Shown here in pieces: positions 10,238 through 23,050 of a stretch of DNA of 23,050 nt. The notes under the pieces were generated by a model. The model searched no databases and was not told where the DNA came from. It worked only from the letters and a program-made list of their open reading frames with translations. This stretch comes from a virus: positions 1 to 23,050 of IMG/VR virus record IMGVR_UViG_3300044623_000842. One strand, written 5' to 3'. Positions within the stretch are counted from its first letter, which is position 1; each line of letters begins with the position of its first letter. Position numbers and translations under genes: made by a program.

Positions 10238-11013
10238 ACGCAATCGCAACGACAACCGCTGATGCATCCTCCGAGATGTACAGCAAGATCGCAGACCCCA
10301 TCACCGCCATCGAGAAGATGGGCGAGTGGATCGCAGCCAGCGGAATGCTGGGATGCACCAAGGTCGAACAGGGAAAGCTCATCGCGTGGCAATGCGCCGC
10401 CGAGAAGAAGACCCCGTTCGATTTCCGCCGGGAATACCACATCATCAACGGCTCCCTCAGCATGCGCTCCGACGCCATGCTGGCCGGCTACCGCGCCCGC
10501 GGCGGCAAGGTGGTGTGGAAGCAGTTCGATACCAAGGCAGCGATCGCTGTCTGGTCCTACGATGGTAACCAGTGCGAGATCGGGTTCTCCACCGAGGACG
10601 CCAAGCTCGCCGGTCTCCTGCCCGCCAAGCCGGGTTCCGGATGGGCCAAGGATCCTGGTGCCATGCTCCGCGCTCGGTGCATCAGCAAAGCGATCCGCAT
10701 GCTCGCGCCAGAGGTTGTGGCCGGCATCTACACCCCTGAGGAGACCGAGGACTTCCAGCCCGCGCCGTCCGAGGTAGCGGTCGCTCCCACTAAGAGCTTC
10801 GACCTCTTGGCCAAGCTGGAAGAACTCTTCGAGTCACGCGAGTCCGATGTGAACGCGCTGCTGCTCAAGGCCGGTCGAATCAAGGAAGGCCAGACCTTCC
10901 GCGATCTGGATGACGCATTCGCTTCCAAGTACATCAGCAAGCCTGACCTGATCCTCGGCAAGCTGCCCGTGATCGTGACCCCTGAGATCGTGAACGCGGA
11001 GGTGCAGCCGTGA
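10234..11013 (+). CDS. RecT-like single-strand annealing protein (putative)
   Basis: A 259-residue protein from the ATG that overlaps the HTH gene stop. The core reads like the RecT/Bet group: CTKVEQGKLIAWQCAAEKKTPF, then FRREYHIINGSLSMRSDAMLAG (the small-set motif seen around S/LxxRxDAMLA in phage annealases), then a Lys/Trp/Asp-rich segment, and RCISKAIRMLAPEVVAGIY-TPEE. The last 80 residues are more variable and helical. The immediate downstream neighbour is a PDDEXK exonuclease, which is the standard RecT-RecE pairing, so it probably loads on resected single strands to drive annealing during phage DNA replication. The family call is from motif memory and synteny; a profile search would decide. 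Confidence 0.65.
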   Translation: MNAIATTTADASSEMYSKIADPITAIEKMGEWIAASGMLGCTKVEQGKLIAWQCAAEKKTPFDFRREYHIINGSLSMRSDAMLAGYRARGGKVVWKQFDTKAAIAVWSYDGNQCEIGFSTEDAKLAGLLPAKPGSGWAKDPGAMLRARCISKAIRMLAPEVVAGIYTPEETEDFQPAPSEVAVAPTKSFDLLAKLEELFESRESDVNALLLKAGRIKEGQTFRDLDDAFASKYISKPDLILGKLPVIVTPEIVNAEVQP

Positions 11014-11789
11014 GTGGAGAAATCATCTGCAACATGCCGGCGGCGATCTACCACGGCACCAAGGCTCTCTCGAAGTCTGGACTCGATCAGTTCCGTAAGT
11101 CGCCCGCCCACTTCCGCGCTTGGCAGGATGGCACGACCAAGAACGAGTCGTCCCCCGCTCTGGAGTTCGGGACCGCCGTTCACATGGCGATCCTTGAGCC
11201 TGAGCTGTTCGCACTGAACTACACGTTGTTCACAGGCGATCGGCGCAACAAGGATGGCAAGATGGCCTACGAGGCGGTCATCGCTTCTGGCAAGATCCCT
11301 CTCAATCAAGAGCAGTGGGACAACATCACCGGAGCCGCCGCCGCGGTTCATGCTCACCCTGCCGCAGCGCCGCTACTCAACGGCATCCAGACCGAGGTCT
11401 CGTGCTTCGACTCGTGGAATGGCGTGAATGTCAAGGCTCGCATCGATGGCCTCGCCAAGGACTACATCATCGATGTCAAAACCACCCAGGACGCGTCCCC
11501 AGCGGCATTCGGCAAGTCGTGCGCCCAGTTCCGCTATCACGTGCAAGCCGCGTGGTACCAGCGCATGACCGGGGTCAACCGGTTCATCTTCATCGCAGTC
11601 GAGAAGGAAGCGCCCTATGGCGTGGCCTGCTACGAACTCGATCAACAGGCCATCGACCTCGGTCACTCAATCATCGAGGAGCAACTCCGCACGTTCGTCG
11701 AATGCCAACAGCTCAACTCTTGGCCTTGTTACTCATCAACCATCCAATCACTCTCGCTGCCCGCGTGGGCGGCTCGTCAGTCCGAATAA
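11010..11789 (+). CDS. PDDEXK exonuclease, RecE/YqaJ-type
   Basis: A 259-residue protein from a GTG start overlapping the RecT-like stop (GTGA), with GGAGG at 10998-11002 just upstream. The hallmarks of the RecE C-terminal nuclease family are present: an N-terminal YH..KALSKSGLDQFRKSPAHF segment, GTAVH with His58, Glu129, Asp146 in KARIDG, the catalytic D-V-K at 155-157 (IIDVKTT), and the Q-A-A-W-Y helix with Gln179 and Tyr183. It should degrade double-stranded DNA ends with a metal ion to give single strands for the adjacent annealing protein. Length is normal for the isolated nuclease domain. All expected catalytic residues are seen, so this is among the safest calls here. Confidence 0.88.
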   Translation: MSGEIICNMPAAIYHGTKALSKSGLDQFRKSPAHFRAWQDGTTKNESSPALEFGTAVHMAILEPELFALNYTLFTGDRRNKDGKMAYEAVIASGKIPLNQEQWDNITGAAAAVHAHPAAAPLLNGIQTEVSCFDSWNGVNVKARIDGLAKDYIIDVKTTQDASPAAFGKSCAQFRYHVQAAWYQRMTGVNRFIFIAVEKEAPYGVACYELDQQAIDLGHSIIEEQLRTFVECQQLNSWPCYSSTIQSLSLPAWAARQSE

Positions 11790-11808
11790 ACAACACACAT
11801 CCCAACAC

Positions 11809-12228
11809 ATGAAATTCAAAGTCGATCGTTCCCAAGCCGAAGTGAAGCCGTTTGCCGGCCCCGGCGAATACACTGTCATCGTCAACTCCTGCAAGGATGA
11901 CGGTCTGGACAAGAGCGGTAACAGCGTCGCAACCCTGCGATACAAGGGTCCATCCGGGGAGGTCATCAGCGACCGCTTCGTTCTCAAGGACACCATGATG
12001 TGGCGCATTCAGGCGCTGATCAGTGCGACCGAGGCAAACATCGATGACGGTGCTGAGTTCGATTTTAGCCTCAACGGAGCCTTCTTCCGATTCCTCCAAG
12101 GCTTCGTTGGACTGTCCCTCGTGATCGTCCTAGAAGAGGAGAAGTACACCGACAAGTTCGGTGCTGAGCAGACCGCTCTGCGAGTCCGTCGCATGAAGAA
12201 GGTGCCGAGCGATAACGACACCATCTGA
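11809..12228 (+). CDS. DUF669/SSB-like phage protein
   Basis: A 139-residue protein. The start at ATG 11809 is chosen because the protein begins MKFKVDRSQAEVKPFAGPGEYTVIV, the usual opening of this group; the open frame extends upstream into the exonuclease gene, but without conserved texture. The beta-rich core (YTVIV..C, GNSVATLRYKG, ISDRFVL), the W-R-I-Q-A-L-I helix, and the later LVIVLEEEKYTDKFG with basic RVRRMKKV are typical of DUF669-type proteins found beside phage recombinases. A role in binding single-stranded DNA alongside the annealase is inferred from that context. The upstream 19 bases are CA-rich with no Shine-Dalgarno sequence. A GC-rich hairpin follows the stop. Confidence 0.65.
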   Translation: MKFKVDRSQAEVKPFAGPGEYTVIVNSCKDDGLDKSGNSVATLRYKGPSGEVISDRFVLKDTMMWRIQALISATEANIDDGAEFDFSLNGAFFRFLQGFVGLSLVIVLEEEKYTDKFGAEQTALRVRRMKKVPSDNDTI

Positions 12229-12242
12229 CCTACAAACAAAAG

Positions 12243-12270
12243 CCCCCCGGAGAGTGCAGGCTCCGGGGGG
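12243..12270 (-). terminator. 10-bp perfect GC hairpin just before the helicase start
   Basis: CCCCCCGGAG (12243-12252) pairs with CTCCGGGGGG (12261-12270) around an 8-base loop. On the minus strand the stem is followed by C and then TTTTGTTTG, so it has the form of an intrinsic terminator for leftward transcription. On the plus strand no T-run follows; instead the helicase ATG (12275) begins four bases after the stem. It could therefore block antisense transcription, weaken rightward transcription, or hide the initiation region of the helicase mRNA. The stem itself is certain; its role is not. Confidence 0.7.
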
Positions 12271-12274
12271 TGAC

Positions 12275-13438
12275 ATGAGTCCAAAACAAACAAACAAAGC
12301 GCAACGACACGCTATGCAGACCAAAGATCATCCGGAAACCATTTCGACGCAAGCATTTCTGCTGCGTCCCTACCAGCAACGAGCGGTCGAGTGGGCCAAG
12401 TCTGGAGCTGATGGACTCATCATCGCACCAGCAGGATGCGGCAAGACACTGATCGCTTCATCGATCATCAAGCACTACTCACAGGATCCTAGCTGGACCT
12501 TTGGTTGGATTGCTCCCACCCGAGAGACATGTCAGCAGGCATGCGATGCTCTCGTGGCTGTGGGTGTGGACCCTACTCGCGTCGATGTGCGCTGCCCCCA
12601 CGAATCCGTAGATTTCAGCAGCAAGAAACTGATCATCGTCGATGAAGCCAAGCATGCGCCTGCGACCACATGGAAGCGCATTATCGAGTCGTGCAAGGGA
12701 CTGAGGTTTGGCTTCGACGCAACGCCTTGGTCCGATGACGGCGAGCGAAACGAAGAACTCCGTAAGCTGTTCCGCGGCAATCAGTTCGAGATCAAGCGCG
12801 AGGAACTCCAAGGAGTTCTGGCCCACGCAACCGTGTACATGCACTCGGCCAGCGACAAAGGTCTCCAGCAGAAGATCGATGATCACATCGAGATGCTCTT
12901 CAACGATCGCAAACGCTACATGCGGATCAAACACGCCGAACTCCGTGCGATGTGCGCTTGGGAAGCGATCACCGAGATCGGAATCTGCAAGAACATGGAT
13001 CGAAACGGAATGGCAGCGGCTATGGCATCAGCATCCGGTGGATCGAAATGTCCAACTCTGGTTCTGGTTCCACGAGTCACACTCGGGATGTGGTTCGCAT
13101 CGCTGCTGTCTGGCGCTGTCTGCATTCACTCGAAGGTTCCGAAGAAGGTCCGAGCCAATGTCATGGATGCGTTCAGGAAAGGAGACATCCAGATCTTGAT
13201 CGCCACCTCTCTGGCCGACGAGGGATTGGATCTGCCGAACGTCCACACGCTGGTCATGGTGTCCGGTGGGCGGAGCGCCCAGAAGACGATCCAGCGGGCC
13301 AGCCGTGCGCTGCGTCGAGCGCCAGGAAAGGATCACGCGATCATCCACGACTTCCGCGACACATTCCATCCGCTCGCAGAAGCCCACGCCAAGAAGCGCA
13401 TCAAGTGCTACAAGGAACTCGGATGCCACTTCGCATGA
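12275..13438 (+). CDS. Superfamily 2 DEAD/DEAH-like helicase
   Basis: A 387-residue helicase from ATG 12275; an upstream in-frame GTG at 12254 lies inside the hairpin loop and is less likely. ATG 12314 is another option. Motifs in order: RPYQQRAVEW (Q-motif-like), Walker A APAGCGKT at 51-58, motif Ia GWIAPTRETC, motif II D-E-A-K at 123-126 followed by His, SGGRSAQKTIQRASRALRR with motif VI Q-R-x-x-R-x-x-R starting at 340, and DILIATSLADEGLDLP-type motif V before it. It is compact, close to the UvsW/RadD-like phage helicases that remodel branched DNA. The DEAK variant of motif II is slightly unusual. Placed with annealase, exonuclease and resolvase, it likely acts in recombination-dependent replication. 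Confidence 0.88.
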   Translation: MSPKQTNKAQRHAMQTKDHPETISTQAFLLRPYQQRAVEWAKSGADGLIIAPAGCGKTLIASSIIKHYSQDPSWTFGWIAPTRETCQQACDALVAVGVDPTRVDVRCPHESVDFSSKKLIIVDEAKHAPATTWKRIIESCKGLRFGFDATPWSDDGERNEELRKLFRGNQFEIKREELQGVLAHATVYMHSASDKGLQQKIDDHIEMLFNDRKRYMRIKHAELRAMCAWEAITEIGICKNMDRNGMAAAMASASGGSKCPTLVLVPRVTLGMWFASLLSGAVCIHSKVPKKVRANVMDAFRKGDIQILIATSLADEGLDLPNVHTLVMVSGGRSAQKTIQRASRALRRAPGKDHAIIHDFRDTFHPLAEAHAKKRIKCYKELGCHFA

Positions 13439-13572
13439 GCACCGCACTCACCATCGTCTCCATGGCCGTGCTGATGCCCCTCTGCGTGATCGCAGGTGTC
13501 TACGTAGGCCACACTCTCACCATCAAGTCCCAACAAACCAAAACCAATGAGCAAAACAATCGTAGCCTGTGA
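13435..13572 (+). CDS. 45-residue single-span membrane microprotein
   Basis: ATG 13435 overlaps the helicase stop (ATGA), and the frame closes at TGA 13570-13572, 26 bases inside the resolvase gene. The product begins MSTALTIVSMAVLMPLCVIA and continues through GVYVGHTLTI into a short polar tail (KSQQTKTNEQNNRSL). That is one clean N-terminal transmembrane helix of about 25 residues with no charge before it. The tight coupling at both ends supports a real gene. It could be a small holin-like or regulatory membrane peptide; no family is recognised. Confidence 0.6.
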   Translation: MSTALTIVSMAVLMPLCVIAGVYVGHTLTIKSQQTKTNEQNNRSL

Positions 13573-14002
13573 CCCCGGCGTGAACGGCGGGTTCGCAATC
13601 CACACCAAGGACGGGATCCTCCTGTTCGCAATGCCCGAATCATTGCCCGATATGGCGCAACTACTAAGCGGATTCAAATTAGCAGATAGCCATCTCTGGA
13701 TTGAGAAGGTCCCCAAGTTCGTGTCCAAGCTGACTCCTGCTGCAAGCGTTGCCACGCTACATGAGAACTACGGCATCATCCAAGGATTGGCCTACTCCAT
13801 TGGATACGCCCTCCACCGCGTGGAACCCAAGGTATGGCAAGACCCTCTTGGACTGGGTGGTAAACGCTCCTGCGCCAACTCCGCGGAGTGGAAGCGCAAG
13901 CTCAAGGCGAAGGCCCAGGAACTGTATCCGCACCTAGATGTCACGCTTAAGAACTGTGACGCCCTGCTGGTCCTCCACTACGCCCAGGGAGGTGGTCGAT
14001 GA
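13547..14002 (+). CDS. RuvC-like Holliday junction resolvase
   Basis: A 151-residue RNase H-fold nuclease. The first strand carries IVACDPGVNGGFAI with Asp9 and the glycine-rich turn typical of RuvC-type enzymes. Glu53 lies in LWIEKVP, followed by a Ser/Thr/Ala helix region and VEPKVWQ, which matches the usual P.xWQ segment of phage RuvC proteins. The C-terminal helix has N-C-D-A-L with Asp138. The second acidic residue normally three positions before it is a Lys here, so one ligand of the metal site appears to differ. Its role is resolving branched replication and recombination intermediates. It starts inside the preceding microprotein gene, and its stop overlaps the next ATG. Confidence 0.8.
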   Translation: MSKTIVACDPGVNGGFAIHTKDGILLFAMPESLPDMAQLLSGFKLADSHLWIEKVPKFVSKLTPAASVATLHENYGIIQGLAYSIGYALHRVEPKVWQDPLGLGGKRSCANSAEWKRKLKAKAQELYPHLDVTLKNCDALLVLHYAQGGGR

Positions 14003-14163
14003 GCGAGCAGGTCAAACGAATGATCAACGATGGTACCGGGGTGTACCAGATGAGCAGGAGCCAAGCCGGTGAAACCTATCGTGCAGCGAAGAAACTTAAA
14101 AGATATGAAGTCAGCTACTGGAACAGAAACAAAAAGAACAAACAAACCCAAACGAAACCGTGA
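13999..14163 (+). CDS. Small basic protein, unknown
   Basis: A 54-residue protein from ATG 13999, which overlaps the resolvase stop (ATGA); the stop is at 14161-14163. It reads MSEQVKRMINDGTGVYQMSR followed by a helical AGETYRAAKKLKR segment and a Lys/Asn/Gln-rich tail. The helix pair with GVYQMSRSQAGETYRAA resembles a small HTH or DNA-binding motif, but this is weak. Its 3' half overlaps the next gene by 59 bases in another frame. Base composition becomes A-rich within this gene. Confidence 0.5.
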   Translation: MSEQVKRMINDGTGVYQMSRSQAGETYRAAKKLKRYEVSYWNRNKKNKQTQTKP

Positions 14164-14299
14164 TCTTGTTAAACACGTTTTAGTGTCACCAGATGTGCAT
14201 GCTGAGTTAAAGGCATACGCAATCAAAAATGGATATAGAACTCAGGGACTGGCAGATGAAGCAATTGCAGAATATCTAAAGAGACAGGAATCGAAATGA
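14105..14299 (+). CDS. Ribbon-helix-helix-like DNA-binding protein
   Basis: A 64-residue protein from ATG 14105; an in-frame GTG at 14069 would add 12 residues. After a Lys/Arg/Thr-rich arm, the sequence KHVLVSPDVHAELKAYAIKNGYRTQGLADEAIAEYLKRQ gives one beta strand and two helices, the CopG/Arc ribbon-helix-helix pattern. Such phage proteins are dimeric repressors or accessory regulators. The gene is clearly more AT-rich than its surroundings: 38 % GC on the line at 14101 and 42 % at 14161, against about 67 % at 11521. This suggests a separate origin. The stop overlaps the next ATG. Confidence 0.65.
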   Translation: MKSATGTETKRTNKPKRNRDLVKHVLVSPDVHAELKAYAIKNGYRTQGLADEAIAEYLKRQESK

Positions 14300-14514
14300 C
14301 CAACCAACCAATCAACGACGGAGGAAGTGCTTTCCCTTCCCCTCCTAGCCAGCATTCAAATGGTTTCTACTCCACCGGAGAAGGCATGACCCTGCGCGAC
14401 TACTTCGCGGCGAAGGCAATCAATGAAGTGGGATGGTACAACAACATAAACCAGAGCGCGATTATGGATTACGAAATAGCCGACGCATTGCTCAAAGCGA
14501 GGGGGGGCAAGTGA
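14296..14514 (+). CDS. Conserved-type small phage protein with GMTLRDYFAAKA motif
   Basis: A 72-residue protein starting at the ATGA overlap. NDGGSAFPSPP near the N-terminus and GEGMTLRDYFAAKAINE in the middle form a pair of motifs I remember from many phage and prophage small proteins of unknown function (DGGxAFP followed by GM[ST]LRDYFAA). The C-terminal YEIADALLKARGGK is helical. The function is not known to me. The gene ends in a G-run that doubles as the ribosome-binding region of the following GTG start. Confidence 0.7.
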   Translation: MTNQPINDGGSAFPSPPSQHSNGFYSTGEGMTLRDYFAAKAINEVGWYNNINQSAIMDYEIADALLKARGGK

Positions 14515-14765
14515 GCGATACCCCAATATCAGACAACACTCCTCACAACGTGGCCGAACTCGGCATGCTGTGCAGGAGGCTTGAACGAGAACTCACCGCG
14601 TCCAACGCAATCATCCGTCAGCAGCAATTGTTGGATGAGGCAAACCTGCGGCTTCAAGACCGCATCAAGCGGCTGGAGCGTGAGATTGAAGTGCTTCGAT
14701 TCTATGGAAACAAGGGATGCACAGCGGTTGCTGATAAAATACTAGCTAGGAATGCAAAGATATGA
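14511..14765 (+). CDS. Coiled-coil small protein, cassette family member 1
   Basis: An 84-residue protein from GTG 14511, overlapping the previous stop (GTGA), with GAGGGGGGG just upstream. It opens MSDTPISDN, then LCRRLERELTASNAIIRQQQ and QDRIKRLEREIEVL, a two-part coiled coil. The MSDTP opening, the L-E-R-E-L-x-A-x-N segment and the RIKRLE segment are shared with other small genes in this array, so it belongs to a local paralogous set. MSDTPRTDA-type openings with a following coiled coil are, as I recall, common in uncharacterised phage proteins. The stop overlaps the next ATG. Confidence 0.65.
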   Translation: MSDTPISDNTPHNVAELGMLCRRLERELTASNAIIRQQQLLDEANLRLQDRIKRLEREIEVLRFYGNKGCTAVADKILARNAKI

Positions 14766-14929
14766 ACGAAGAACTACTGACCAAACTATTGGAATACATT
14801 GACGCGGCAATCGACGCAAAATCTGAACAAGCGAGAGAATCGTCTGACGGAGGATTGGTTGAGGCGGTCGTAAAATTTCGCGTAAGAGATGAACTGTTCA
14901 GTCTAATTAAAAAGGAGGACAAGCCGTGA
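14762..14929 (+). CDS. Small acidic helical protein, unknown
   Basis: A 55-residue protein from ATG 14762 (ATGA overlap) to TGA 14927-14929. It reads MNEELLTKLLEYIDAAIDAK, then VKFRVRDELFSLIKKEDKP: two amphipathic helices with a short strand. The C-terminal E-D-K-P is encoded by the shared junction cassette GGAGGACAAGCCGTGA, which is also the ribosome-binding site and start of the next gene. No family is recognised. Confidence 0.6.
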   Translation: MNEELLTKLLEYIDAAIDAKSEQARESSDGGLVEAVVKFRVRDELFSLIKKEDKP

Positions 14930-14930
14930 A
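14914..14930 (+). repeat. Junction cassette copy 1 (RBS plus overlapping stop/start)
   Basis: GGAGGACAAGCCGTGAA provides a strong Shine-Dalgarno sequence, encodes the C-terminal Asp-Lys-Pro of the upstream gene, and contains the GTGA stop/start overlap. It recurs at 15096-15112 with one change and at 15428-15444 identically. Confidence 0.85.
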
Positions 14931-15111
14931 TCTACCAAAATCAAGCATCATTGATGAGATAGCAGATCATCGTGACGAACTGCTAAATGAGAACAGAAAA
15001 CTCAACCAACGCATCAAGCGGCTGGAGGAGGATGGGGATGAATCAATCTGCGCCTTGGAGTATGCGAGTAGAGTGAGAATTTGGACAGAAGCAAAGGAGG
15101 CCAAGCCGTGA
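14926..15111 (+). CDS. Coiled-coil small protein, cassette family member 2
   Basis: A 61-residue protein from GTG 14926, eight bases after GGAGG. It opens MNLPKSSIIDEIADHRDELL, then NENRKLNQRIKRLEEDGDES, a heptad-like helix. The RIKRLE stretch is nearly identical, also at DNA level (CGCATCAAGCGGCTGGAG), to that of the gene at 14511-14765. The C-terminus EAKP comes from the shared junction cassette. It probably dimerises; function unknown. Confidence 0.65.
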   Translation: MNLPKSSIIDEIADHRDELLNENRKLNQRIKRLEEDGDESICALEYASRVRIWTEAKEAKP

Positions 15112-15112
15112 A
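15096..15112 (+). repeat. Junction cassette copy 2
   Basis: GGAGGCCAAGCCGTGAA differs by one base from the copies at 14914-14930 and 15428-15444. It again gives the ribosome-binding site, a Lys-Pro C-terminus and a GTGA overlap. Confidence 0.85.
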
Positions 15113-15443
15113 CCCTCAACACGACCCCAGCCTCATTGATAAGGTTCCACCATCAATTGTATCGGCAGCGATGGCGGTATCAAACTGGTTTAACAGTCAG
15201 TCGCTGCATCCAAGCCCGCGCTGGGAATTTTTGAGCATTTGTTCCCGAAACCACGCGGACCGATTGAAGAAACTCGAACGTGAACTCGATTTCGCGATGA
15301 CCAACGAATCAATTGAAACAAATAAGAACCACAAGCTGCGACAACGCATCAAGCAACTGGAGCAGGAGAACGACGCAATGCGAGCGGATCTGCTGCTGTG
15401 GGACAAAGCTGGCATCGGATTTACTACGGAGGACAAGCCGTGA
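15108..15443 (+). CDS. Coiled-coil small protein, cassette family member 3, with extra N-terminal domain
   Basis: A 111-residue protein from GTG 15108. Residues about 1-45 form a compact domain with Trp residues (IVSAAMAVSNWFNSQSLHP, then PRWEFLSICSRNHADRL). Residues about 46-92 are a coiled coil with KKLERELDFAM and RQRIKQLEQENDAM, matching the paralogous motifs of its neighbours. The end TTEDKP is encoded by the third junction cassette. It looks like the family coiled coil fused to a small N-terminal module. Confidence 0.65.
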   Translation: MNPQHDPSLIDKVPPSIVSAAMAVSNWFNSQSLHPSPRWEFLSICSRNHADRLKKLERELDFAMTNESIETNKNHKLRQRIKQLEQENDAMRADLLLWDKAGIGFTTEDKP

Positions 15444-15444
15444 A
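15428..15444 (+). repeat. Junction cassette copy 3
   Basis: GGAGGACAAGCCGTGAA is identical to the copy at 14914-14930. It ends the coiled-coil gene 15108-15443 and starts the Cys-rich gene at 15440. Confidence 0.85.
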
Positions 15445-15721
15445 CCTCAACGATTCCCAGCGCAAGCTCATCACCAACAGCATTTCCACTGTTTGGAAGG
15501 GAAAGCGCGAATGCCCGATCTGCATCCCCACCACCGTTTGGAGCATTGGAACCCTCGTTGAGGTCCGAGAGTTCAACGAAGGTAATCACTGCCCCGGTGC
15601 TGCTATCACTCCTCTGGTAAAAGTCGAGTGCAACAACTGTGGGTACACCATCCTCTTCAATGCCATCGCTCTCGGTGTCGTTGACCCGGACACCGGCAAA
15701 GTGAAGGAGGTGAAGTTGTGA
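15440..15721 (+). CDS. Small zinc-ribbon-like protein
   Basis: A 93-residue protein from GTG 15440. CPIC (residues about 25-28) and CNNC (about 66-69) are the two halves of a four-cysteine zinc site, with strands between them (TLVEVREFNEGNHCPGA, PLVKVECNNCGYTILFNAIALG). The C..C / CxxCGY pattern and helical start (SQRKLITNSISTVW) look like a small zinc ribbon found in phage accessory proteins. A nucleic-acid or protein-binding role is an inference. The stop overlaps the next GTG; a GGAGG at 15706-15710 precedes that start. Confidence 0.65.
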   Translation: MNLNDSQRKLITNSISTVWKGKRECPICIPTTVWSIGTLVEVREFNEGNHCPGAAITPLVKVECNNCGYTILFNAIALGVVDPDTGKVKEVKL

Positions 15722-15900
15722 GCGATACACCAAGGACGGATGCGGCCTATGTTGCATCTACTAAAGTAGGGCTTTACGAGCTTTTCAAAGAGTCTCAGGC
15801 CATCGAACGCGAACTCAGCGTAGCCAACAAGCGCATCAAAGAACTCGAAGCCAAAGTGGATGAACTCCATGACCTCGAAAAATGGTTGGAGGGAAGATGA
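15718..15900 (+). CDS. Coiled-coil small protein, cassette family member 4 (MSDTPRTDA type)
   Basis: A 60-residue protein from GTG 15718. It opens MSDTPRTDAAYVAST, sharing GTGAGCGATAC at the DNA level with the start at 14511, and continues with IERELSVANKRIKELEAKVDEL, a clean two-heptad coiled coil with the same IERELxxAN and RIKELE motifs as its paralogues. The C-terminus DLEKWLEGR is helical. Function unknown. Stop and next ATG overlap (ATGA). Confidence 0.65.
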   Translation: MSDTPRTDAAYVASTKVGLYELFKESQAIERELSVANKRIKELEAKVDELHDLEKWLEGR

Positions 15901-16121
15901 AACTGCGACCGATCAAATGGGTGCTGTCACCTACCGACGACCACATGCTTTCCATGGAATGCACCGACATCGAGATCGTCGATGAAGGCGGCGGTGAGTA
16001 CGTCGAGGTCAGTCAATCTGCTGATGGCCATGGTAAAGTCAGCATCAACCCAGAGGAATGGCCGATGATGCGTAAAGCCATCGACGACGCCATCAAGCAA
16101 TGCAGGGATCTGAAACCATGA
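15897..16121 (+). CDS. Small acidic protein, unknown
   Basis: A 74-residue protein from ATG 15897, with GGAGGGAAG just upstream. It has strand-rich halves (IKWVLSPTDDHMLSMECTDIEIVDE, GEYVEVSQSADGHGKVSINPEEW) and a C-terminal helix (MMRKAIDDAIKQC). This beta-beta-alpha layout is common in small phage proteins; I do not recognise the family. It is linked by 4-base overlaps to genes on both sides. Confidence 0.6.
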   Translation: MKLRPIKWVLSPTDDHMLSMECTDIEIVDEGGGEYVEVSQSADGHGKVSINPEEWPMMRKAIDDAIKQCRDLKP

Positions 16122-16303
16122 CCATCGAAGAAATGAGAACCATTGACGGAGTGAAGACTTGGAAAGAGCTGGAGGAGGCCAAGGAGCGCATCGCGCACCT
16201 GGAGTCAGCCATCCGATCCACACTTGAAGCCAATCGACACCTGTCCGACGGAGAAAACTGCACTCTGATCGAACTCAAGAAAGCCCTACCAGACTACCCA
16301 TGA
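16118..16303 (+). CDS. Small coiled-coil protein, possible cassette family member 5
   Basis: A 61-residue protein from ATG 16118 (ATGA overlap). After TIEEMRTIDGVKTWKELEEA it has KERIAHLESAIRSTLEANRH, a more diverged version of the RIKxLE coiled coil. Membership in the paralogous set is uncertain. The stop overlaps the next ATG. Confidence 0.55.
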   Translation: MTIEEMRTIDGVKTWKELEEAKERIAHLESAIRSTLEANRHLSDGENCTLIELKKALPDYP

Positions 16304-16845
16304 TCTACTCACAAGCAGGCCAATTGCCTCACCATCAGTACTGCTTCGTCGAAGCATCCTTCCTCGGATTATCCGGGGCAGCATTTATCCCCTGCGTCTG
16401 GTTCGGCCTAGTATCCATCCCAGGTCGGATGTGGGGCTGCACCATCATGCTTGAGTGCGGCGCGGTTTACCGGGCGGTGCCGCCTCACGCGCTAGCATTC
16501 GATCCACAGCCTGAACTCGACTGGCGCCCAGACCACGCCCAGCGATGGGACTGCTACGGCACCGACTTCACCACCATCGAGTACACCTTCCTCCGAGGAC
16601 TCGAATGCCAGGTCAAATGCGCCGATCAAATCATCACCGGAGACTACCTCTTCACCGCCGCTCCCATCGGCGATAGCTGGAGCCGCCAACCCAACCAAGC
16701 CAAGGAATTCATGTTCATCCGAACCGATGGCGAACGACTCACCATCCAGCCCACCGATAAGGTCATCTTCATCGAGAAGTCATTCACCGAACCTCAATGG
16801 CCCACCGGCCTGCGAACCACCGACAAAATCTACACCTGCGAATAG
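16300..16845 (+). CDS. Conserved-type phage protein of unknown function (WDCYG / EFMFI / LTIQPT)
   Basis: A 181-residue protein from ATG 16300. It is beta-rich and Trp/Tyr/Cys-rich: MLECGAVYRAVPPHAL, RWDCYGTDFTTIEYTFLRGLEC, GDYLFTAAPIGDSWS, KEFMFIRTDGERLTIQPTDKV, and F.EKSFT near the end. I remember proteins with the same string of motifs in environmental phage genomes, always without a function, so it is probably conserved. The first 40 residues contain a hydrophobic patch (LSGAAFIPCVWFGLVSI), not a clear signal peptide. It sits in the co-transcribed small-gene chain. Confidence 0.6.
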   Translation: MIYSQAGQLPHHQYCFVEASFLGLSGAAFIPCVWFGLVSIPGRMWGCTIMLECGAVYRAVPPHALAFDPQPELDWRPDHAQRWDCYGTDFTTIEYTFLRGLECQVKCADQIITGDYLFTAAPIGDSWSRQPNQAKEFMFIRTDGERLTIQPTDKVIFIEKSFTEPQWPTGLRTTDKIYTCE

Positions 16846-16854
16846 AAGGGGAAA

Positions 16855-17100
16855 ATGACGATACTTCAACAATTGGGGTTGACCAAGGAGTCCATGTCTC
16901 GCATGGTGGGCCATGTCACTCCGTTCAAGGATCCGAACCCTCGGATCAACCGGCGGTGGCCGGCTGTTCCAACCGAGATCCGGGATGCCATCCTGAAAGA
17001 GGACAAGTCACGCACTTACCCAGAGTTGTCCAAAAAGTACAACATCTCACTGTCATGTGTATGGAACATCAAGAACAGCAAAAACAACAAACAACAATAG
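16855..17100 (+). CDS. HTH protein with N-terminal LGLT-PFK module
   Basis: An 81-residue basic protein from ATG 16855, preceded by GAAGGGGA. Residues 4-25 (LQQLGLTKESMSRMVGHVTPFK) form one helical module. Residues about 41-73 (EIRDAILKEDKSRTYPELSK, then KYNISLSCVWNIKN) look like a helix-turn-helix. The gene at 17240-17653 has the same two modules in reverse order. Likely a DNA-binding regulator. Its last 46 bases are shared with the next gene in another frame. Confidence 0.6.
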   Translation: MTILQQLGLTKESMSRMVGHVTPFKDPNPRINRRWPAVPTEIRDAILKEDKSRTYPELSKKYNISLSCVWNIKNSKNNKQQ

Positions 17101-17240
17101 AGGAACTACAACGATGGAAACAGTTATGTCACGAATTGGCCGATTGCTTGGGATGCGGATGCATAATCAAGCACGGCCTGTGTGTCCAGTGCCACAAAGC
17201 ACAGAAGAGGTACCGAGCAATACAAACACCTTTGAGGTAG
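17055..17240 (+). CDS. Small Cys-rich protein
   Basis: A 61-residue protein from ATG 17055 (or ATG 17061), ending at TAG 17238-17240. After a Gln/Glu-rich helix (QEQQKQQTTIEELQRWKQLC), it has CLGCGCIIKHG-LCVQCHKAQKR, where Cys-x-x-Cys pairs suggest a small zinc knuckle. It overlaps the end of the HTH gene, and its stop overlaps a GTG start by one base (TAGTG). No Shine-Dalgarno is seen. The Cys pattern supports a real product, but this is a less secure call than its neighbours. Confidence 0.5.
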   Translation: MCMEHQEQQKQQTTIEELQRWKQLCHELADCLGCGCIIKHGLCVQCHKAQKRYRAIQTPLR

Positions 17241-17653
17241 TGGCAGTTAGTAAGAAGAAGAAGGACAAGAAGCAAATATACATGAAACTTAGCGATTCAA
17301 TCGATCAAGTCAGGAAGCTGCGATCAGAAGGGCTTACCTATCGTCTCATCGGTGAACACTTCAAGATGTCCAAGCAGCGGGTCTATCAGATCATCCAAGC
17401 CGGCAAGCAGCGCGATATCGAGCGGGCCAAGTGGACCTACGGGCTCAGCGTTCGTAACGCTAAGCTGATGGAGAAGCTCGGGATCACAAGCAATGAATCC
17501 GCGAGGGTTGCTGTTCTCACTGGCGAGATCGCCCCTTTCAAGTGGGACAACTTCGGTCGCAAGTCCTACAACGACCTCTGCCAATGGCTCGATGTCAAAC
17601 CGCTTGAATCATTCAGCGGTAAGAAGTGTCCTCACTGCGGCCTTCAAACATGA
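17240..17653 (+). CDS. HTH protein with C-terminal LGIT-PFK module
   Basis: A 137-residue protein from GTG 17240; ATG 17282 and an upstream ATG at 17114 are alternatives. Residues 21-53 (LRSEGLTYRLIGEHFKMSKQRVYQII) are a sigma-region-4-like HTH. Residues 77-101 (LMEKLGITSNESARVAVLTG, then EIAPFK) match the N-terminal module of the gene at 16855. A lone CPHC at 130-133 near the C-terminus may be half of a metal site. A transcriptional regulator is likely. The stop overlaps the next ATG. Confidence 0.65.
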   Translation: MAVSKKKKDKKQIYMKLSDSIDQVRKLRSEGLTYRLIGEHFKMSKQRVYQIIQAGKQRDIERAKWTYGLSVRNAKLMEKLGITSNESARVAVLTGEIAPFKWDNFGRKSYNDLCQWLDVKPLESFSGKKCPHCGLQT

Positions 17654-17913
17654 GCAACCGTCACCAATACCCACTCGTTGAATCAATCAAGGTGGTCCGC
17701 CTCTCGGAGGGGCGGACCATCCGCATTACAAGGGATCGTACCAAGCAAGACCTCAAAGTGATCCACGGCGACGGAGACATCCATCTCACCTGCGTCGCTC
17801 AAGCCCATGATCCCATCGAGATGATCAAGACCTTGGCCCGCCTCGAAGACGTCCGATCAGTCGAACTCACCGACGCCAAGGGCAACGGCATCATAATCCA
17901 CAAACAGAAATAA
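17650..17913 (+). CDS. Small beta-rich protein, unknown
   Basis: An 87-residue protein from ATG 17650 (ATGA overlap). It is made of short strands (SIKVVRLSEGRTIRITRD, LKVIHGDGDIHLTCVAQ), a helix (IEMIKTLARLED) and a last strand (VELTDAKGNGIIIHKQ). No known motif. The next gene starts after a single base, so it is part of the same transcript. Confidence 0.6.
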   Translation: MSNRHQYPLVESIKVVRLSEGRTIRITRDRTKQDLKVIHGDGDIHLTCVAQAHDPIEMIKTLARLEDVRSVELTDAKGNGIIIHKQK

Positions 17914-17914
17914 C

Positions 17915-18160
17915 ATGAACCAGTCCTCAACACACGACATCGTAACGGCACTCAAGATCGTCAGCTCCCAAATCGAATCACCAGATGGAGTCGCGCAAGC
18001 CCTCTGCCTCGAAGCAGCAAGTCGTCTCACTGACATGGTCAAGCTCACGAGCGACCTCACTGCACACGTTATCTCCAATCCTGTGCATCATTCTCGATGT
18101 AACTCCAAAACCAAGGGTACCTACTGCAATTGTATCCTGGCTCGCATCCTCCCCACATGA
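17915..18160 (+). CDS. Small helical protein with C-terminal Cys/His cluster
   Basis: An 81-residue protein from ATG 17915. The first 55 residues are helical (HDIVTALKIVSSQIESPD, AQALCLEAASRLTDMVKL). The C-terminus has HHSRC and YCNCILAR, which could hold a metal ion. Unknown function. The stop overlaps the next ATG. Confidence 0.6.
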   Translation: MNQSSTHDIVTALKIVSSQIESPDGVAQALCLEAASRLTDMVKLTSDLTAHVISNPVHHSRCNSKTKGTYCNCILARILPT

Positions 18161-18423
18161 AGACCCCAAGACACGAGCAGCCATGGTACGAATGCCGCCT
18201 TGAAACCAACAAGAAGCCAGCCCCATTGACCGCAGAGGAACGCACCACCATGAGCGACATCAACCGAAAGCTCATCGAGGACGCCCCTCGCCTCATCGAA
18301 TACGGCATCAAGAAAGGGTGGATCTCCTACCCAAAGAAGACTCGAGCCTACCACACATGGATCACCAAGGATAGCCCGCCACTCGAACAAGACGATTCGT
18401 CCGCGTTCGATACCAGTCCGTAG
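18157..18423 (+). CDS. Small basic protein upstream of primase, unknown
   Basis: An 88-residue protein from ATG 18157 (ATGA overlap). It is hydrophilic, with a helical middle (DINRKLIEDAPRLIEYGIKK) and a Trp/Tyr-containing segment (GWISYPKKTRAYHTWITKD). It ends 20 bases before the primase-helicase start. Position hints at a replication accessory role, but no motif is recognised. Confidence 0.6.
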   Translation: MKTPRHEQPWYECRLETNKKPAPLTAEERTTMSDINRKLIEDAPRLIEYGIKKGWISYPKKTRAYHTWITKDSPPLEQDDSSAFDTSP

Positions 18424-18443
18424 TCCAGCAACAAATCAACGAC

Positions 18444-20300
18444 ATGACAACGCTCCTCGAACGAGCGGCGCTTTGGCTCGCCAAGGTACCGCCAGCCATC
18501 TCCGGATCCGGAGGGCACTCACAAACCTACACCGCCGCCGTTGGCCTCGTCCACGGCTTCGGCCTATCAGACACAGACGCATTCACACTCCTGTCCGATT
18601 GGAACCGCTCATGCCAACCACCCTGGCAGGACCGCGAACTCCTCCACAAGATCCGACAGGCCAATGAGAAGTCCCACTCCAAGCCCCGCGGGCACCTCGC
18701 CAATTCCTCGGCAAGCAGCCCCGCTGAGCCATTGGATCTGACACGGGTGCGGTTCAGTAGGCCAAAGCCTGTGGAGCCTCCGCGGGTACCAGAGGGGTCC
18801 GTGGAGCCGTCCGCGCCATCAAACCCGCCCGCAGCCCCCATACCGGCCTCGCACGACGCATCGGAGTTCAAGCGTTTCCTCACATCCGCCTTCGCGGCCA
18901 CCGAGGTGGTCTGCATCTGCGAGCAGGTCGAGGATGGTAGGCCAATCAGTGCCGGCTCATTCCTTCCCCTCGAGGACTGGATCGCTCGCTTCGATGATCC
19001 CGAGTCCATCCTGTTCCGCAGCGACCGAACCGATGGCGTCTTCGTACGCATCAACCCGTTCAAGCCAAACCTCTACAGCGGATCGGACAACGATGTCAGC
19101 GCGTACCGCCATGTCCTGGTGGAGTTCGATTCCAAACCCAAGGCCGAGCAGGAACAGCTCCTCCGCTCCTCGGGCCTCCCCATCAGCGTTCTCATCGACT
19201 CCGGTGGCAAGTCCATCCATGCATGGGTCCGTGTCGATGCCCCCAACCGCAAGGAATGGGACGCCCGCAGGGACCTCATCTACTCGGCAATCCCCGATGT
19301 CGATCCCAAGAACAAGAACCCATCGCGCTTCTCCCGGCTCCCCGGCTCCTGGCGGGGCGAAGAGAAGCAGAAGCTGTTGGACATCAACCTCGGCGCTCGA
19401 TCATGGGAAGATTGGCTCACCGATCGGGAGACCGATGATGACAAGGCCACCGTCGTCACCATCAAAGACCTCATGGACTTTGATCCGGACAACGATCCGG
19501 ACAACCTGATCGGCAATCGATGGATCACCCGCGGCTCCTCCATGATCGTCAGCGGTGGTACCGGGATCGGGAAGTCCAGCCTGATGATGCAGATCGTCAT
19601 CCGCTGGTGCCTCGGCCTCGACTTCTTCGGGATAAAGCCGGTGAAGCCATTGAAGATTGGGGTCATTCAGGCCGAGAACGACAAAGGTGACCTCGCCGAA
19701 GCATTCCGCGGGGTGGTGCATAAGAGATTCAGTCTCAATCAGATGAACCAGCTTCAGAAAAATCTGGAGTTCAGGACCGAGACCGTTCGTACCGGTGACC
19801 AGTTCCTCGCCTACGCCCGCCGATTCATCCACCGCTCCAAGATCGATCTCATCGTGGCCGATCCTTTGTTCAGTTACTTCGGCGGAGACCTCAGCGATCA
19901 GTCCGAGGTGTCGATATTCCTTCGCAACAAACTCCAACCCATCCTCCACGAGACCAAGGTCGCTTGGGTCTGGATGCACCATGTAGCAAAGCCCCAACGC
20001 AAGGATGGCGGCGAACCACTCACCACAATGGAACTGGCCCACTCAGGCTTCGGCTCCTCCGAACTCGCCAACTGGGCGCGTGAGATAGCCGTTCTCCATG
20101 AGGTAGGCCAATCAAAGCCTCGACGCTTCCAGCTAGCCTTCTGCAAGCGGGGAGGGAGGATTGGACTCCCGTCTCCCATTCTCAATCTTCAACACTCAGC
20201 CACCGGCATCCAGTGGGAAGAGTCCAACCCCCTAGCGTTCACGGGAGCGGAGCTGAAGAAGGAGAAGCCTTATCGCCCTCAGCCAAGGCGTCGCGCATAG
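18444..20300 (+). CDS. Primase-helicase fusion (Prim-Pol-like plus RepA/RecA-type ATPase)
   Basis: A 618-residue replication protein. Residues 1-75 (PPAISGSGGHSQTYTAAV, WNRSCQPPW, ELLHKIRQA) are the helical module often found with phage primases. Residues 90-140 are a Pro/Ser linker. Residues about 150-330 have archaeo-eukaryotic primase features: E-F-D at 227-229, S-G-G-K-S-I-H at 253-259, and SRFSRLPG at 294-301. Residues 360-560 are a RecA-fold helicase: Walker A GGTGIGKSS at 371-379, Walker B IDLIVADP at 467-474, and MHH at 511-513. It should prime and unwind at the fork; no DNA polymerase is seen here. Its last 62 bases overlap the convergent gene on the other strand. Confidence 0.82.
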   Translation: MTTLLERAALWLAKVPPAISGSGGHSQTYTAAVGLVHGFGLSDTDAFTLLSDWNRSCQPPWQDRELLHKIRQANEKSHSKPRGHLANSSASSPAEPLDLTRVRFSRPKPVEPPRVPEGSVEPSAPSNPPAAPIPASHDASEFKRFLTSAFAATEVVCICEQVEDGRPISAGSFLPLEDWIARFDDPESILFRSDRTDGVFVRINPFKPNLYSGSDNDVSAYRHVLVEFDSKPKAEQEQLLRSSGLPISVLIDSGGKSIHAWVRVDAPNRKEWDARRDLIYSAIPDVDPKNKNPSRFSRLPGSWRGEEKQKLLDINLGARSWEDWLTDRETDDDKATVVTIKDLMDFDPDNDPDNLIGNRWITRGSSMIVSGGTGIGKSSLMMQIVIRWCLGLDFFGIKPVKPLKIGVIQAENDKGDLAEAFRGVVHKRFSLNQMNQLQKNLEFRTETVRTGDQFLAYARRFIHRSKIDLIVADPLFSYFGGDLSDQSEVSIFLRNKLQPILHETKVAWVWMHHVAKPQRKDGGEPLTTMELAHSGFGSSELANWAREIAVLHEVGQSKPRRFQLAFCKRGGRIGLPSPILNLQHSATGIQWEESNPLAFTGAELKKEKPYRPQPRRRA

Positions 20301-21998: not shown

Positions 21999-22091
21999 TC
22001 AACCGTTCCCGGCTAGGGCTGAGAGAACCATAAGGGCGACGAAGAAAGCGCCAAGCAGCAAGTAGCCCAAGGCGCGGAATAGGTCGCTCAT
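21999..22091 (-). CDS. 30-residue single-span membrane microprotein
   Basis: On the minus strand, ATG 22089-22091 overlaps the stop of the preceding gene (ATGA), and the frame ends at TGA 21999-22001. The product starts MSDLFRALGYLLLGAFFVAL and ends MVLSALAGNG: one transmembrane helix after a short polar start. Start/stop coupling and the terminator shortly downstream support a real gene despite its size. It may be a small holin-like or membrane regulatory peptide; no family is recognised. Confidence 0.6.
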   Translation of the reverse strand: MSDLFRALGYLLLGAFFVALMVLSALAGNG

Positions 22092-22429
22092 ACCGCGTAC
22101 CTTTCGGCAATGTCTCCCCAACAGCAGAGACGATAGTGCCCGTTGAACTTCAAAACCGTCGTTACGTATGGGTCACCTACGTTCAGGTAATAGCACCAAC
22201 CCTTTTCGGTCTCGAAAGCCTCAACCCCATGGGTCTCGAGCAATTCGTTAAGGCATTCCATCCGGAGGTCACGGGTTGATGGCGGGTTGTAGCATTCCCG
22301 AACCCGTGCAGCGCCCGCGGGCAATTGCTCGAGCTCACGACGGCTCATCCGGAAGATCTCCTTCGCCCGCTTTCCCTTTCCGGGGAAAACTGCCTCGAGC
22401 GAATTGACAGGGGGGGAAAGGAATTTCAC
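22088..22429 (-). CDS. Small phage protein, unknown, with GWCYYLNVGDPYVTT motif
   Basis: A 113-residue protein on the minus strand from ATG 22427-22429, overlapping the upstream stop. Residues 1-40 are basic and polar. Residues about 57-110 look folded: MECLNELLETHGVEAFE, then GWCYYLNVGDPYVTTVLKFN, and YRLCCWGDIAERY. The HGVE...YLNxGDPYxxTLL-like pattern is one I recall from uncharacterised phage proteins. A C7 run in the coding strand near codons 6-7 could be prone to slippage or sequencing error. It is the middle gene of a three-gene leftward operon. Confidence 0.6.
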   Translation of the reverse strand: MKFLSPPVNSLEAVFPGKGKRAKEIFRMSRRELEQLPAGAARVRECYNPPSTRDLRMECLNELLETHGVEAFETEKGWCYYLNVGDPYVTTVLKFNGHYRLCCWGDIAERYAV

Positions 22430-23050
22430 TTGGTCACTCCTTCCTTGAAATGCGTGGCTCCGGTTCCATGGGGGGGAATATGGACGGACTCGAGACCATT
22501 ACGGGATCCCGCGCATAGCAGGCACTCAGCGCAAGGGGTTCCGATGCGCTCACTGGCGCAAAGCGACTCGCCCACCGAAGCTTCGGAGCCGACGCGAAAG
22601 GTTGACCAGCCAAGGGAACGGGCGATCACAAGTTCAGCCACGCTGTCAACGGAGGCCATCAAAAGGGAACGCCAGCCTTGCAAGCTAGGCTTGCGCCATT
22701 GATGGGTGTAACCTGTCCATCCGGAAGAAGCGCCAGCAATGGCCAGTGCAAGGCTAAGGGGCAAGTGTGTGGGGTCTCCGTAGGCTCCGAAACGGACCCG
22801 GCGCCCGGTGAAAACCTCGAGGCTGCGCAGCAAGGGATAATTGCCCGCTTGCCACGCCCGCCAGATCCCCAGTGGAGCTTGGCCTACGTTGACGTAGCAG
22901 GAACGACCGGAGCCGTCGCCGTTGCCCCGATGGACGCATGATCCGCAGATCAAACGGTCCAACCCTTCCTTGATTGCGCGGACGGGGTCCATGGCTTTGA
23001 CAAGAATCCAAATTTGGATCATATCGCCCGTCTTCCGGTTGTCGGAAGGG
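22426..23050 (-). CDS. DUF7227-like phage/plasmid protein, 5' end outside window
   Basis: The minus-strand frame is open to the window edge. The codons before ATG 23020-23022 encode SDNRKTGDM, which fits the NxKTGxMxQxWIL opening I remember for this family, so the true start lies beyond the window. The visible part is 207 residues: ICGSCVHRG, SCYVNVGQAPLGIWRAWQAG, VRFGAYGDPTHLP, TGYTHQWR, LMASVDS, GWSTFRV, and C-terminal CAECLLC. These ordered motifs with conserved Cys residues strongly mark the family, found in phages and plasmids; I believe it is DUF7227 but cannot confirm the number. The function is unknown; the cysteines suggest a metal site. Its stop overlaps the next start. Confidence 0.75.
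   Translation of the reverse strand, partial: PSDNRKTGDMIQIWILVKAMDPVRAIKEGLDRLICGSCVHRGNGDGSGRSCYVNVGQAPLGIWRAWQAGNYPLLRSLEVFTGRRVRFGAYGDPTHLPLSLALAIAGASSGWTGYTHQWRKPSLQGWRSLLMASVDSVAELVIARSLGWSTFRVGSEASVGESLCASERIGTPCAECLLCAGSRNGLESVHIPPHGTGATHFKEGVTK

Follow-up and report, generated by a model that had tools for sequence, protein, structure and literature searches.

The question raised by this locus is what kind of protein is encoded by the gene at one end of the window, the whole 23,050-base stretch of DNA that we analyzed and the entire linear IMG/VR virus record. The minus-strand frame at 22426-23049 is open at the window edge and translates into residues 22-228, followed by a stop (residue numbers are those of the relative L002), with seven conserved cysteines. 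The original prediction described a DUF7227-like protein that runs off the window and carries the motifs CYVNVGQAP, FGAYGDP, GYTHQWR, LMASVDS and GWSTFRV; all five are present in this translation, and the frame does continue upstream in L002 and L003, which are 97% identical. In these relatives the start, taken at MNGFILHED, lies 21 codons before the first codon of the window, and these 21 codons are missing from the window. Extending the sequence past the edge, a check proposed with the prediction, yielded the full-length protein of 228 aa from the relatives and not from the window itself. As the window is the whole linear record, the 5' end of its own gene is not recoverable.

Relatives were found in 147 of 50,697 phage records, mostly from phages of Mycobacterium (61), Klebsiella (29), Gordonia (28) and Microcystis (8), and homologues are present in mycobacteriophages RhynO, as gp74, and Adzzy, in Gordonia phage ShayRa and in Klebsiella phage KB57, as KB57_206. 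With L002 as the query, relatives were recovered from 6 of 72,556 plasmid records, and a pattern scan of genomes from 84,980 species, a method that detects only some relatives, placed them at 21 loci or more. Comparison of the window coding sequence with 11 relatives gave dN/dS values of 0.128-0.202, in keeping with the strong constraint that had been predicted. From the spread in phage records, these dN/dS values and the identity of all seven cysteines in every representative compared, we conclude that 22426-23049 (-) is a real, conserved and constrained gene, beyond chance.

The first relatives that we retrieved all shared at least 75% identity, and a query with a Klebsiella phage protein yielded 11; for that reason we ran three alignment-based scans of viral sequences and one of bacterial genomes. 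Each viral scan contributed its best 80 loci and was capped at 600 stretches, which makes the family sample an incomplete one. Residue conservation was scored on 198 representatives below 90% identity, drawn from 342 sequences, and structure and profile work used 120 of the 137 family representatives below 80% identity. Most sister records listed have a hypothetical protein at the match, unlike the Klebsiella phage records OY979426.1 and OY757067.1, where the matching region is annotated as "baseplate hub | baseplate spike" together with tRNA genes; these labels are possibly a misannotation or the result of shifted coordinates.

The window protein is a member of PHROG 2554 (E 3.2e-59), from which it shows no difference, and all 120 relatives scanned match the same group, to which no function is assigned. 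Searches with the window protein returned no Pfam family at E<=1, DUF5131 and GP88 included, no NCBIfam or PADLOC family, and no radical-SAM family in Pfam or NCBIfam. Sequence searches of the PDB gave one row for the window protein (E 0.97) and two for the family profile (E 0.38 and 1.3), none of them a convincing relative. With these sources empty or unconvincing, we rejected direct annotation as a way to assign function. The open-licence literature agrees with the earlier view that the family is undescribed: no function for it was found there, no mention of DUF7227, PHROG 2554 or DUF5131 was found, and "Gene product 88" led to an unrelated paper only.

The name DUF7227-like is right in substance. 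Pfam DUF7227 (PF23872) is matched at E<=1 by 97 of 120 family members (best 5.5e-8), the DUF7227 protein L358 (220.6 bits) matches PHROG 2554 at 6.3e-30, and hhalign comparison of the family with DUF7227 gave 98.1% over 189 columns. Where the label falls short is the window protein itself, which has no Pfam match at E<=1 and does not reach the DUF7227 gathering score of 27 bits; relatives scored singly gave 17.9 (L085) and 14.3 bits (L082) for phage proteins and 16.0 bits for a bacterial one (L325), with no DUF7227 match for a third phage protein, L083. A viral scan with L358 as the query found no relative. In a Foldseek search of viral models with our own model (see below), the best DUF7227 protein was found at E 3.6e-7 and TM 0.62; two named DUF7227 proteins had a prob of 1.00 and a third, of 66 aa, 0.23. 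The DUF7227 proteins that we compared, of Pseudomonas phage and cyanophage origin apart from one bacterial protein, have the same layout of three plus four cysteines and share KTG, GD, YTH, S and HG, but they have CP/CG-x2-C-x(5-6)-CYA and [AS]GDL where the window family has C-x2-C-x(6-48)-CY and YGDP. Profiles and models together show that the window family is kin of DUF7227 over most of its length, with a common seven-cysteine layout.

Residues C56, C59, C72, C185, C194, C197 and C200 are identical in 198/198 representatives, as are N25, K27, T28, Y73, R107, G109, Y111, G112, H137 and S154; of the nearly invariant positions, D113 is conserved in 196 representatives and H215 in 194. The cysteine clusters of metal-binding type that had been predicted are thus borne out, and they split into an N-terminal group of three, C-x2-C-x(12 here)-C-Y (22897-22947), and a C-terminal group of four, C-x(mostly 8 or 11)-C-x2-C-x2-C (22513-22560), each present in 198/198 and, like all motifs below, on the minus strand. 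Across the 198 representatives, C56 and C59 are always 2 residues apart, the C59-C72 spacing ranges from 6 to 48, and the CxxCxxC of C194, C197 and C200 is fixed. The other motifs are NxKTG (N25-G29; 23026-23040, placed by codon count), with N, K and T in 198/198 and G in 194/198; RxGxYGDP (R107-P114; 22771-22794), with R, G, Y and G in all and D in 196; GYTH (G134-H137; 22702-22713), with an invariant His; LMASVDS (22642-22662), containing the invariant Ser154; and HG (H215 and G216; 22465-22470), in which the Gly is kept in 189/198. As the scans that gathered most sequences used RxGxYGDP and NxKTG as patterns, conservation in those columns is partly selected, and the cysteines are unaffected by this.

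We propose, with slightly better than even confidence, that the gene encodes a stand-alone radical-SAM-like phage enzyme with a three-cysteine catalytic cluster and a four-cysteine auxiliary site. The canonical radical-SAM motif CX3CX2C is absent, the family having C-x2-C-x(6-48)-CY in 198/198; non-canonical cysteine spacings do occur in the wider radical-SAM superfamily. Three invariant, oddly spaced cysteines followed by an aromatic residue, together with the weak match to solved barrels described below, would also suit an enzyme in which a [4Fe-4S] cluster serves the non-classical cleavage of SAM or of a different substrate, broadly as in Dph2, ThiC or PhnJ. We hold this alternative to be improbable, as no Dph2, ThiC or PhnJ family is among the matches listed, although absence is no proof.

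To place these residues in a structure, we modeled L002 with AlphaFold2 using 120 sequences (pLDDT 96.0, pTM 0.92). The model has an N-terminal hairpin followed by six strands with helices between them, an alpha/beta arrangement that we read as a partial barrel. It predicts that two short helices separate the three-cysteine stretch from the end of strand 1 of these six, that GDP ends strand 2 (residues 105-111), YTH strand 3 (131-136) and S154 strand 4 (152-155), that the four-cysteine stretch lies between strands 5 and 6, and that HG comes after the last strand. RxGxYGDP would therefore stand at the end of the presumed second barrel strand, which we infer to be the place of the radical-SAM GGE motif.

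Comparison of this model with solved structures gave weak matches at best. Foldseek against the PDB found no significant match, the best (E 0.13) not being a radical-SAM protein, and in comparisons by VIA, radical-SAM structures reached Z scores of at most 3.0 (MoaA 1tv7, 3.0; 5wgg, 2.8; Cfr 9p0p, 2.8), no better than other barrels (1dl3, 3.2). Among viral models, Foldseek placed a GP88 protein at E 0.67 and radical-SAM proteins at E 1.0 to 1.9, without significance. That no significant PDB relative turned up does not prove a new fold. The weak similarity to radical-SAM structures, mixed among many TIM barrels, the non-canonical cysteine spacing and the missing direct profile link to DUF5131 are all compatible with a metal-binding barrel outside radical-SAM chemistry, which would hold zinc or structural Fe-S clusters and act as a hydrolase, transferase or nucleic-acid binder; tRNA-guanine transglycosylases, for example, bind zinc in a TIM barrel. 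The C-terminal CxxCxxC points the other way, being commoner for [4Fe-4S] clusters, as in ferredoxin motifs, than for zinc, and so does a chain of profile matches to DUF5131, whose model fold is radical-SAM. Weighing the two sides, we consider such a barrel rather unlikely, if far from negligible.

The chain that favors a radical-SAM-like enzyme runs through GP88 (PF17338) to DUF5131 (PF07505), which we take to be phage Gp37/Gp68. Profile comparison gave 94.0% for DUF7227 with GP88 and 91.2% for GP88 with DUF5131, and hhalign gave 68.1% for the window family against GP88 (49.7% in the reverse direction); reversed profiles and 13 neighbor families, used as controls in the same test, stayed at or below 6.1%. 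Direct profile comparison with DUF5131 gave 0.6% for the family and 0.8% for DUF7227, so the chain to DUF5131 hangs on GP88. Greater depth did not help: with 88 GP88 sequences the family scored 57.9-62.4%, over the C-terminal cysteine stretch alone, and DUF7227 79.0% in one direction against 38.8% in the reverse (reversed controls reached 7.6% at most), and we dropped added depth as a means of strengthening the family-GP88 link, which stands at 50-68% by direction and depth. A merged DUF7227 and GP88 profile scored 81.8% against DUF5131 with set A10 and 32.5% with the smaller set A9; the values were 16.6% and 0.9% when the family was merged with both, and 0.1% in either set for family and DUF7227 merged, in tests where one decoy reached 8.4%.

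Single proteins also connect these families. L353 bridges GP88, at 82.7 bits, and DUF7227, at 27.4 bits (cut-off 27), and L350, a DUF5131 match at 330.8 bits, scores 24.4 bits to GP88, which is at the GP88 cut-off; the DUF5131 protein L351, at 19.6 bits, is below it. In a merged alignment of 59 family, DUF7227 and GP88 sequences, two N-terminal cysteines, a Tyr, an Arg, Gly-Asp, a Ser, the four C-terminal cysteines and one His are invariant, the Arg and Gly-Asp being partly selected by the search patterns. The GP88 clade of L353 has C...CxxCYA, GD, S, the four C-terminal cysteines and the terminal His, whereas the GP88 proteins L349 and L354, unlike the window family, are without the C-terminal four. 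Common to the aligned sets of the family, DUF7227, GP88 and DUF5131 are three invariant N-terminal cysteines and a Tyr directly after the third; in two further GP88 proteins, L352 and L354, Leu stands in place of this Tyr. DUF5131 has the three N-terminal cysteines invariant and no C-terminal group, a distribution expected if the former belong to a core cluster and the latter to an auxiliary one.

To assess the far end of the chain, we took 46 of the 63 usable DUF5131 sequences that 79 loci provided. All 46 match TIGR04471, "radical SAM mobile pair protein A" (best 5.7e-31), with scores that, among the matches listed, are far below the equivalog cut-off. For a DUF5131 model (L427:2501-3253 (+); pLDDT 91.2), the top row in VIA was spore photoproduct lyase (Z 13.4, rmsd 2.9, 196 aligned), with viperin, RlmN and lipoyl synthase after it. 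Judged by their titles or by general knowledge, 48 of the best 50 rows belong to radical-SAM enzymes, several rows repeating one enzyme, with an MtaB model of unclear standing at rank 48 and a designed protein at rank 49. In Foldseek, spore photoproduct lyase was alone below E 0.01 (E 2.7e-4), and the next rows include unrelated barrels. DUF5131, labeled as unknown in Pfam, is thus predicted from this model to fold like radical-SAM enzymes, with spore photoproduct lyase the nearest of the matches listed.

The window family resembles DUF5131 and TIGR04471 in the three-cysteine motif, which in them ends in CYA, in the Asp after strand 2, in the alpha/beta fold and, for most DUF5131 proteins, in a Ser near strand 4; DUF5131 differs by its C-x6-C-x2-CY spacing, by having no C-terminal four cysteines and by the clear radical-SAM fold of its model. 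With radical-SAM enzymes such as spore photoproduct lyase, some of which carry auxiliary clusters, the likeness is one of proposed chemistry, and the window family differs from them in its smaller size and in the Z of at most 3.0 for its own model. By profiles and models, then, the chain appears firmly radical-SAM at DUF5131 and is supported only step by step, through GP88, at the end of the window protein. Taken together, these comparisons make a radical-SAM-like identity plausible for this gene, which is widespread in phages and keeps all seven cysteines throughout our sample.

If the proposal is right, the product would act as a stand-alone enzyme whose roughly 228 residues form an alpha/beta (partial TIM) barrel with kinship to the radical-SAM superfamily. 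C56, C59 and C72, the last followed by Tyr, would ligate a [4Fe-4S] cluster and leave one of its irons free to bind S-adenosylmethionine. From general knowledge of radical-SAM enzymes, GDP after strand 2, at the GGE position, would bind the SAM amino group, and the strand-4 Ser would contact the SAM ribose. C185, C194, C197 and C200 would ligate another [4Fe-4S] cluster, an auxiliary one next to the active site, H137 or H215 would be at the substrate, and reductive cleavage of SAM would start radical chemistry on it. The original prediction of a probably metal-binding protein with an enzymatic role is upheld in part: metal binding is read from the conserved cysteines, and an enzyme is plausible through the radical-SAM-like links rather than shown.

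We also examined the genomic neighbors of homologues, as had been suggested, at 198 representative loci, clustering up to 5 mechanically called ORFs per side within 5 kb (fewer at locus ends). Terminase subunits (30, 27 and 15 loci) head the list of neighbor families together with a hypothetical protein (20 loci), and DNA methyltransferases lie near the gene at 12 and 5 of the 198 loci. There is no steady partner, and we rejected a fixed-partner model, as no neighbor family occurs at more than 30 of 198 loci. The same result could be expected of a non-enzymatic accessory protein, such as a regulator or host-factor binder, whose cysteines only stabilize the fold. Such a role is very unlikely in our estimate, given that the invariant or nearly invariant polar residues D113, H137, S154 and H215 are placed by the model at strand ends, as in an active site, and that the protein is kept across very different phages. 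For a radical-SAM-like enzyme, the lack of a steady partner suggests that the substrate is probably something available in every infected cell (nucleic acid, nucleotide or host protein) and not a dedicated phage peptide. In the window, a downstream 113-aa ORF at 22088-22429 (-) overlaps the gene end by 4 bases, and for this reason the two are probably on the same transcript. Counting the window, 7 of the 198 loci have this ORF or a relative of it at the +1 position, and searches with it gave no family at E<=0.1.

Were the radical-SAM identity true, a widespread phage family would gain a chemical identity that can be tested, and DUF7227, GP88 and DUF5131, listed separately as unknowns, would become one superfamily. 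The homologues in RhynO, Adzzy, ShayRa and KB57 bring a knock-out and an anaerobic assay within reach. A broader and doubtful possibility is that DUF7227/PHROG 2554, GP88 and DUF5131 form one large, unnamed, phage-borne radical-SAM branch that acts on nucleic acids or nucleotides, in which the DUF7227 side gained the four-cysteine auxiliary cluster. It would then serve phages of mycobacteria, enterobacteria, cyanobacteria and alphaproteobacteria during infection, in modifying or repairing their own nucleic acid or, alternatively, in altering the nucleotide pool or tRNA of the host. A study of alphaproteobacterial phages mentions a radical-SAM protein adjoining QueC (PMC10783043), and TcmP is named in a table row of PMC12429752. 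We rejected a deazaguanine link, as nothing that we read in PMC10783043 ties the QueC-adjacent protein to the window family.

Elsewhere in the window, a 1728-aa protein at 4824-10010 (+) has the size of an internal virion protein and matches neither PHROG nor NCBIfam families below E 0.01. The product of 16300-16845 (+) matches PHROG 3704, labeled "ferredoxin" (9.6e-17); by eye it has no CxxCxxC ferredoxin motif, and the label may be wrong. A block of replication and recombination genes extends over 11010-20300 (+) by PHROG match, with an exonuclease VIII-like protein (11010-11789 (+)), a DNA helicase (12254-13438 (+)) and a DNA primase-like protein (18444-20300 (+)), and the product of 13547-14002, judged by eye, resembles a RuvC-type resolvase.
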